Assembly (NCBI RefSeq): GCF_030457605.1
Contig: NZ_JAKDUR010000002.1
Span: forward strand, 1-64,000
DNA from: Halomonas sp.
GTDB taxonomy: Bacteria > Pseudomonadota > Gammaproteobacteria > Pseudomonadales > Halomonadaceae
Reading direction: 5' to 3'
Length of the DNA: 64,000 nucleotides
Part shown: in pieces, positions 3,622 to 51,849 of the stretch
How positions within the stretch are numbered: the stretch's first letter is position 1
How the letters are laid out: the number at the start of each line of letters is the position of its first letter
The notes under the pieces: model-generated
What the model was told of the DNA's origin: nothing
The model's database searches: none
What the model saw: only the letters and a program-made list of their open reading frames with translations
Program-made: the position numbers and the translations under genes

Positions 3622-3731
3622 GGCGGCCCCAAAAGCCACATCCCGGCACACGCATCCACCACTACCGTTGCTCCCTTCCGGGCCTGGCGGGGTTCGCAGT
3701 TTAGCGTTGCGGGAGGACCTAAGGGGCCACC
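3622..3731 (-). ncRNA. ffs: 4.5S SRP RNA (small bacterial type)
   Basis: Reverse complement contains CCTCCCGCAACGCTAAACTGCGAACCCCGCCAGGCCCGGAAGGGAGCAACGGTAGTGGTGGATGCGTGTGCCGGGATG. The apical SRP motif is present, and the ends (GGTGGCCCC / GGGGCCGCC) pair. Confidence 0.93.
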
Positions 3732-3779
3732 ATCGCGGCAAGCGTATATTGCTGCTTGCGAGTCTTGCATTGTGTGCTG

Positions 3780-3856
3780 TGGTGGCTACGCCCTGATTCG
3801 AACAGGGGACCCCATCATTATGAGTGATGTGCTCTAACCAGCTGAGCTACGTAGCC
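3780..3856 (-). tRNA. tRNA-Met (anticodon CAT), CCA encoded
   Basis: Reverse complement GGCTACGTAGCTCAGCTGGTTAGAGCACATCACTCATAATGATGGGGTCCCCTGTTCGAATCAGGGCGTAGCCACCA; anticodon loop CTCATAA; very close to E. coli elongator tRNA-Met. Confidence 0.97.
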
Positions 3857-50450: not shown

Positions 50451-50837
50451 ATGCCTTATCTTCGTCGTTACGTTGCCATGCTGCTGATTGCCGTGCTGAT
50501 GATCAGCAGCCTGCCCGTGGCCGCCGCACAGACGGCCGGTCTTGTTACAACGCAGTCCGCGTTACAGGCCGATACGGCCAGCAGCGACCGCGAACGCATC
50601 AACGATGTTCTGGCCCGTGCCGATGTACAGGACCAGCTGCTGGCTCAGGGCGTAAGCGTTGATCAGGTACAGGAACGTGTAGCCGCGCTCAGCGATGCCG
50701 AAGCCAAGCAGATGGCCGATCGGCTCGACGCAATGCCCGCCGGTGCTGGCGTTGTGGGCGCCCTGTTTGCCGTTTTCGTGATCCTGCTGGTCACCGACAT
50801 TCTGGGTCTGACCAATGTTTTTCCGTTTACCCGCTAA
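50451..50837 (+). CDS. PA2779-like small membrane protein
   Basis: MPYLRRYVAMLLIAVLMISSLPVAAAQT signal, 'VQERVAALSDAEAKQMADRLDAMPAGAGVVGALFAVFVILLVTDILGLTNVFPFTR' C-terminal TM; paired with PA2778-like peptidase. Confidence 0.82.
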   Translation: MPYLRRYVAMLLIAVLMISSLPVAAAQTAGLVTTQSALQADTASSDRERINDVLARADVQDQLLAQGVSVDQVQERVAALSDAEAKQMADRLDAMPAGAGVVGALFAVFVILLVTDILGLTNVFPFTR

Positions 50838-51849
50838 ACGTCGGTGGCATAAGTCCATTCAGCAAAACGCCCGCCCTGCGGGCGTTTTGCTGTGCTGCGC
50901 ACTCCTTGCCGTACTGCTGAGCGGCTGTGCCACAAGCCCTGCCCTGCAACAGAGCACCTATCAGCTGCCCGAGCACGTCGAGCTTGAAAACGTGCCCTTC
51001 TATCCGCAGGAAAAATATCAGTGCGGCCCGGCAGCGCTGGCAACGGTGCTTAATTATTCACCGGCTACGATACCTGGCTCCTCTAGCGCATGGACAGCCA
51101 CTCAGGCTCAGGGCAGTGAAAGAAACACCACCATCACCGCCACAAACCTGGTACCTCAGGTATTCATCCCCGGCCGGGACGGCAGCGTACAGCCGGAAAT
51201 GCTTGCCACGGCGCGCCGTCATCAACGCATTGCCTATCCCATCCGCCCCACGTTTGATGCACTGCTTGAACACGTCGCCGAAGGTTACCCGGTGGTTGTC
51301 ATGCAAAACCTCTCACTGCCGGCCTGGCCCATGTGGCACTACGCGGTGGTAATCGGCTATGACCTGCCCGACGAAACACTGGTGCTGCGTAGCGGCGAGA
51401 CCCGCCGGCAGGCATCGTCGTTCGCCCGCTTTGATTCGACCTGGGCACGTAGCCAGCGCTGGGGCTTCGTGTTGGCAAAGCCGGGGCGTATTCCGGCAGG
51501 CATTACGCCCAAACGCGCGGTGGATGCCATCAGTGACTACGAGTCAGTGCATGGAATTCGCGCCACGCTTTCCAGCTGGCAGGCGCTTGTCGCCAAACAG
51601 CCGCAAAACGCCATGGCCTACTTCGCGCTGGGGAACGCCTACTACGCACTTGACCGGCCGGAAAAAGCCGAGCAGGCGTTCAAGCTCGCCACAGCGGCCG
51701 ACAGCACGCTGGGCGTTGCCTGGTTGAATCTGGGGCTTTTGTATCAGGCGCAGGGCAATACCCCAAAGGCGCGACAGGCTCTTGAAAAGGCTGCCGAGCT
51801 ACCCGGCCAGTGGCAACAAAAGGCACGTACCGCGCTGGATAAACGCTAA
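50815..51849 (+). CDS. PA2778-like lipoprotein: C39-type cysteine peptidase plus TPR
   Basis: Lipobox LLSGCATSP; YPQEKYQCGPAALATVLNY (Cys nucleophile) and MWHYAVVIGYD (His); TPR 'AYFALGNAYYALDRPEKAEQAFKLATAADSTLGVAWLNLGLLYQAQGNTPKARQALEKA'. Confidence 0.85.
   Translation: MFFRLPAKRRWHKSIQQNARPAGVLLCCALLAVLLSGCATSPALQQSTYQLPEHVELENVPFYPQEKYQCGPAALATVLNYSPATIPGSSSAWTATQAQGSERNTTITATNLVPQVFIPGRDGSVQPEMLATARRHQRIAYPIRPTFDALLEHVAEGYPVVVMQNLSLPAWPMWHYAVVIGYDLPDETLVLRSGETRRQASSFARFDSTWARSQRWGFVLAKPGRIPAGITPKRAVDAISDYESVHGIRATLSSWQALVAKQPQNAMAYFALGNAYYALDRPEKAEQAFKLATAADSTLGVAWLNLGLLYQAQGNTPKARQALEKAAELPGQWQQKARTALDKR

Follow-up and report, generated by a model that had tools for sequence, protein, structure and literature searches.

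The PA2779/PA2778 gene pair of Halomonas as a candidate envelope proteolysis module

Two overlapping genes in a Halomonas sp. genome raise the question of whether a lipid-anchored, C39-like peptidase is encoded together with its own membrane-tethered substrate. The genes lie in the window, by which we mean the whole 64,000-nucleotide stretch of DNA analysed (contig NZ_JAKDUR010000002.1, positions 1 to 64,000). They belong to the PA2779 and PA2778 families, whose names derive from Pseudomonas aeruginosa genes. The first-pass annotation had described the pair as lacking a defined function and, although both families are named, we found no function for either in the literature searched. The literature located on the pair is limited to papers that report a transposon adjoining PA2779 (PMC3985676), an altered start codon of PA2778 in a single clone (PMC3697988), and a screen for strong constitutive promoters in P. 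stutzeri whose list of genes includes a PA2779-family member (PMC10155442). The nearest studied parallel is FapD, from the Fap amyloid system of Pseudomonas, a periplasmic C39 peptidase that is needed for amyloid secretion, requires its active-site Cys, and has an unproven target (PMC5557850).

Two overlapping genes and their distribution

The features of the locus, with the evidence for each, are as follows.

50451..50837, plus strand: PA2779-family gene (NF033919 / DUF6627), 128 aa; open reading frame and profile matches
50451..50528, plus strand: PA2779 signal peptide, about residues 1-26; sequence, with helix 3-18 in the AlphaFold2 model
50553..50732, plus strand: PA2779 four-helix domain, residues 35-94; conservation and AlphaFold2 model
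50736..50750, plus strand: PAGAG, residues 96-100, proposed cleavage region (after Gly98 or Ala99); motif conserved, cleavage inferred
50745..50801, plus strand: PA2779 hydrophobic (TM) helix, residues 99-117; AlphaFold2 model
50793..50828, plus strand: PA2779 conserved tail TDILGLTNVFPF, residues 115-126; alignment, missing from several family members
50815..51849, plus strand: PA2778-family gene (NF033920), 344 aa; open reading frame, profiles and AlphaFold2 model
50860..50892, plus strand: 15-bp perfect hairpin and TTTT run, terminator-like, within peptidase codons 16-26; z -4.4 and family-wide enrichment
50926..50928, plus strand: lipobox Cys38; 262/263 pairs
51022..51024, plus strand: catalytic Cys70; 263/263 pairs
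51052..51147, plus strand: 32-residue loop, residues 80-111; alignment, low pLDDT
51337..51339, plus strand: catalytic His175; 263/263 pairs
51391..51393, plus strand: Ser193, about at the place of the C39 catalytic Asp; alignment
51580..51801, plus strand: TPR domain, about residues 256-329; profile matches

The two reading frames overlap by 23 nt in different frames. The small protein is composed, in order, of a signal peptide, a helical domain, the PAG motif, a C-terminal hydrophobic helix and the conserved tail, and matches NF033919 (PA2779_fam) with 140.8 bits (cut-off 40; profile positions 2-123 of 123) and Pfam DUF6627 with 99.2 (cut-off 27). Its neighbour has a lipoprotein signal peptide, a C39-like peptidase and a C-terminal TPR domain, the last also matched in Pfam, and scores 301.4 bits against NF033920 (C39_PA2778_fam; cut-off 150) and 43.6 against PF13529 (Peptidase_C39_2; cut-off 24). 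Both genes are full members of these families, in the usual order and spacing. The proposal of a PA2779/PA2778-like pair was thus borne out, as were the finer details on which it had been built, namely a small protein with a signal peptide and PAGAG ahead of a hydrophobic helix, and a TPR-containing lipoprotein with the lipobox Cys and the C39-like segments QCGPAALATVL (Cys70) and WHYAVVIGYD (His175). Elsewhere in the window, a small SRP RNA adjoins a tRNA (3627-3856, minus strand), an ordinary feature.

Among 369 genomes of the class, PA2779 occurs above the cut-off in 89 and PA2778 in 86, with both in 85, PA2779 only in 4, PA2778 only in 1 and neither in 279 (Fisher p about 1e-77, a value that ignores kinship). 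The expectation that the genes would rarely be found apart held under this check, and three of the five genomes with one gene alone have it at a contig end. These are the sole PA2778-only genome (G380) and two PA2779-only genomes (G048 and G247); the others are G222, with a broken peptidase next door, and G399, a true exception. The G222 locus (L145) has PA2778 split into several reading frames beside an intact PA2779 whose motif is now PAAS, and could be a natural loss of the peptidase. PA2779 was found in 94 of 295 genomes in the order survey and 46 of 398 in the phylum survey; of the loci fetched in these surveys, just two have PA2779 without the peptidase, the first lying at a contig end and the other being a second copy. 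Few additional sequences came from order-level surveys centred on other genomes. The pairing occurs in many Proteobacteria, and contigs labelled Desulfobacterales, Denitrovibrio and Nitrospiraceae carry pairs as well. A contig labelled Agromyces (L111) bears a Marinobacter-like pair and probably belongs to a contaminated metagenome-assembled genome.

The copy numbers of the two genes differ. Thirteen genomes in the class survey have two or three PA2779 genes above the cut-off, and only two have two PA2778 genes. The extra PA2779 copies lie in tandem with the pair or elsewhere, some of them far from it, and nearly all retain the small-residue motif and the hydrophobic helix, although several lack the conserved tail and stop just past the helix. 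Such a surplus fits a substrate better than a 1:1 subunit. At two further loci (L300 in G579 and L303 in G486), the PA2779 match crosses an in-frame TGA near the C-terminus, and the tail may have been lost through the stop codon. Mean-field DCA of 263 pairs (Meff about 200) gave T115-L168 and N122-Q199 as the best couplings between PA2779 and PA2778; these are only slightly above shuffled pairings and follow subfamilies.

The small protein and the lipoprotein peptidase

The AlphaFold2 model of PA2779 (pLDDT 79, moderate) has helices at residues 35-54, 57-65, 70-79 and 82-94, then a break at 95-98, the PAG motif, and finally the hydrophobic helix. Within the four-helix domain, Arg76 and Gly67 are invariant and Glu84 is nearly so. 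The first-pass annotation had made its cleavage site depend on a conserved small-residue motif ahead of the TM helix, and the motif passed this check: weighting over 127 diverse PA2779 proteins (effective number 91) gives P96, A97 and G98 a frequency of 0.97 each, and residue 99 is G (0.47), A (0.28) or S (0.19), together 94%. The conservation of PAG roughly equals that of Gly67, Arg76 and Glu84 in the core, and the motif is among the most conserved parts of the protein. The raw set of 263 pairs, in which Marinobacter and relatives are heavily represented, has E or Q as residue 99 in 47 cases and keeps G98 in 261. The motif of Marinobacter and relatives reads P[ATV]G[EQ][GD], so what is constant across the family is PxG, and not every member has a strict GG/GA/GS site.

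A fold search with PA2779 returned no significant PDB match. A relation to Nif11 or nitrile-hydratase leaders, suggested by eye, gained no support: the 25 NCBIfam families that most of the 127 members match include no such model. A profile of the helix-PAG-TM segment identified no other protein family with this signature in 40 genomes, its one marginal match being the C-terminus of a cytochrome c-like protein; the signature is therefore confined to the PA2779 family in these genomes and is not a general sorting signal.

The PA2778 model is of high confidence (pLDDT 91). Gln65, ahead of the catalytic Cys, is present in 261 of 263 pairs. Profile matches of the peptidase domain include the C39-like structure 3erv, LahT (8.5e-6) and ComA (1.3e-5), with a weaker match to the endoisopeptidase PeiR, and the domains of three of four relatives tested pass the cut-off of PF03412 (Peptidase_C39). 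The Asp that serves as the third catalytic residue in Peptidase C39 is not conserved in the family, which has Ser (225/263) or Thr (36/263) at this place, as located by alignment to ComA without a superposed structure. In PCAT1, the groove that receives the leader includes A55 and I59 (PMC6959990). Counted along the ComA and LahT alignments rather than by superposition, the corresponding PA2778 residues are Gln126 and Leu130; the first of these positions is Ala in PCAT1, LahT and ComA and a conserved Gln in PA2778. These substitutions suggest, from aligned sequences, that the PA2778 family may bind its partner differently from PCAT1, LahT and ComA. Compared with the rest of its family, the window peptidase has a longer loop after the catalytic Cys helix, with 32 residues against 11-12 in 255 of 261 members and 46-87 in the three nearest relatives (L002, L081, L082). 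The long loop is of low complexity and in L081 is partly a tandem repeat of ADSPG units.

A hairpin at the start of the peptidase gene

The peptidase gene carries a terminator-like hairpin within its first codons. Counting over unique pairs, and taking as a hairpin any structure that reaches -10 kcal/mol or better and precedes a T-rich stretch, we found one at the PA2779/PA2778 junction in 53% of 142 unique pairs and in 45% of 238. The controls gave 3.5% within PA2778, 10% 3' of the PA2778 stop, 13% in dinucleotide shuffles, and 1 of 18 other lipoprotein starts. The hairpin typically starts 21-36 nt downstream of the PA2779 stop. It takes 91 distinct sequences and is present in the majority of members in 52 of 122 clusters (55% protein identity), and is thus not one inherited sequence. 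A position ahead of the true peptidase start was ruled out, because an in-frame start lies upstream of the hairpin in 101 of 106 cases, which places it within the PA2778 coding region.

The simplest reading of this enrichment is that many transcripts would stop after PA2779, with the peptidase made by read-through, so that the partner would be in excess of the enzyme. The hairpin thus suggests that PA2779 exceeds PA2778. A terminator-like hairpin in the signal-peptide codons of a downstream gene may be a general means by which overlapping genes are expressed unequally.

Candidate cleavage at the PAG junction

We propose that PA2779 and PA2778 form a self-contained two-gene proteolysis module of the envelope, and give a probability of about 0.55 to its central claim, that PA2779 is cleaved by PA2778 at the PAG junction, which sets free the helical domain of about 70 residues. 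Sec would export PA2779, whose C-terminal helix would hold it in the inner membrane and leave the helical domain in the periplasm. PA2778, a predicted lipid-anchored cysteine peptidase of the C39 double-glycine type, would dock on the last helix of this domain and, if active, cut PA2779 at PAG[GAS], immediately outside the membrane, so that the helical domain would be released as the functional product and the TM peptide would stay behind. PA2779 would be produced in excess of PA2778, since many loci have the terminator-like hairpin between the two products.

Several observations stand against cleavage: the E or Q at PA2779 residue 99 in some lineages, the replacement of the C39 Asp by Ser or Thr, and Gln126 in the groove of PA2778. 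An Ala after the lipobox Cys, as in PA2778, predicts the outer membrane, whereas the TM helix of PA2779 predicts the inner membrane for the partner. The claim of an exact cleavage site is weaker than that of pairing, because Marinobacter and relatives have P[ATV]G[EQ][GD], PAG may be a helix hinge, and the C39 Asp is not conserved. In favour of the module are the near-perfect co-occurrence of the genes, the conserved PAG with G, A or S after it in most members, the invariant Cys70 and His175, the nearly invariant Gln65, the LahT and ComA matches, the surplus PA2779 copies, including shortened ones that keep the motif and TM helix, a helix spacing that resembles C39 leaders, and the precedent of FapD (PMC5557850). 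The first-pass reading of the locus as an envelope proteolysis module therefore stands as regards pairing, PAG conservation and the match to solved double-glycine peptidases; its strict GG/GA cut does not hold family-wide.

Comparison with known systems shows where the proposal is conventional and where it departs. Double-glycine leaders end in Gly-Gly, Gly-Ala or Gly-Ser, usually with Ala at -3 and hydrophobics at -4, -7 and -12 (PMC6363468, PMC6959990). PA2779 comes close, with Gly-[Gly/Ala/Ser] after an amphipathic helix, Ala at -3, and hydrophobics at residues 85, 88, 92 and 95 (-15, -12, -8 and -5 from a cut after residue 99), although the inner spacing is shifted by one. PA2778 has detectable sequence homology to the C39 domains of the ABC exporters LahT, ComA and PCAT1 and shares their Gln/Cys/His active site. 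It differs in being a lipid-anchored envelope protein with a TPR domain in place of the ABC transporter domain and with Ser/Thr for the catalytic Asp, and its putative cleaved partner would be a Sec-exported, TM-tethered protein. FapD, as described in the literature, likewise works in the periplasm as a C39-like cysteine peptidase and has a partner locus as well as candidate GG/GA sites, but it serves amyloid secretion with several partner genes, whereas PA2778 is lipid-anchored, contains a TPR domain and has a single partner (PMC5557850). Like the GlyGly-CTERM/rhombosortase system, the pair combines a glycine-containing motif directly before a C-terminal TM helix with near-perfect co-distribution of enzyme and signal, and targets outnumber enzymes in some genomes. 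Rhombosortase, however, is an intramembrane serine protease, whereas PA2778 is predicted to be a lipid-anchored soluble cysteine peptidase. Sorting of the GlyGly-CTERM type, which places motif, TM helix and basic cluster on several unrelated proteins, was not supported: despite the motif and TM helix, only PA2779-family proteins bear the signal in 40 genomes, and most of them lack a basic C-terminus.

The main and serious rival, which we consider possible if doubtful, is that PA2779 is an uncut membrane partner that positions the peptidase or keeps it in check, be it as docking platform, chaperone or inhibitor, with the real substrate elsewhere and PAG acting as a hinge to the TM helix. Nearly 1:1 genomic pairing, a modelled helix break exactly at PAG, a tolerant residue 99 that suits a hinge, and a signature carried by no other protein in 40 genomes all accord with such a partner, whereas extra PA2779 copies without extra peptidases, some distant from the pair, do not, and G-[GAS] with the upstream helix pattern is more like a C39 site than a generic hinge needs to be. 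A fate for the released domain other than simple hydrolysis would arise if PA2778 were a transpeptidase that cuts at PAG and joins the new C-terminus to an envelope amine, as a papain-fold counterpart of sortase. This we regard as distinctly unlikely: a small-residue motif followed by a C-terminal TM helix is indeed the layout of LPXTG, PEP-CTERM and GlyGly-CTERM signals (PMC3237569), and targets can outnumber enzymes, but most PA2779 members lack the basic C-terminal cluster, one target family only was found in 40 genomes, no acceptor was identified, and C39 relatives are hydrolases.

The roles of the two fragments could also be reversed, the C-terminal TM peptide with its tail being the product and the helical domain a leader-like part, as the N-terminal part is in C39 systems (PMC6363468, PMC6959990). 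The tail (consensus TDxLGxTDxFPF) is conserved in most members, yet it is gone in several that keep the motif; the N-terminal part carries a signal peptide of its own as well as conserved residues in its core, Arg76 among them, and no gene neighbour of the pair recurs beyond the lineage level, which makes this reading very improbable. A broader idea, speculative and rather unlikely, is that a lipid-anchored C39-type cysteine peptidase could be devoted to processing or sorting a membrane-tethered protein at its C-terminus, as the papain-fold equivalent of sortase, exosortase and rhombosortase, with the substrate:enzyme ratio set by a terminator in the enzyme's signal-peptide codons.

About one in four of the gammaproteobacterial genomes sampled (in the GTDB sense, beta included) carries PA2779. 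The buried hairpin is of separate interest as a route to unequal amounts of two overlapping gene products. If PA2778 does cut PA2779 at PAG, the pair would be a new envelope proteolysis module with a dedicated substrate, and double-glycine-type cleavage would extend beyond ABC exporters, to the periplasmic side of the Gram-negative cell, where FapD is the one precedent found.
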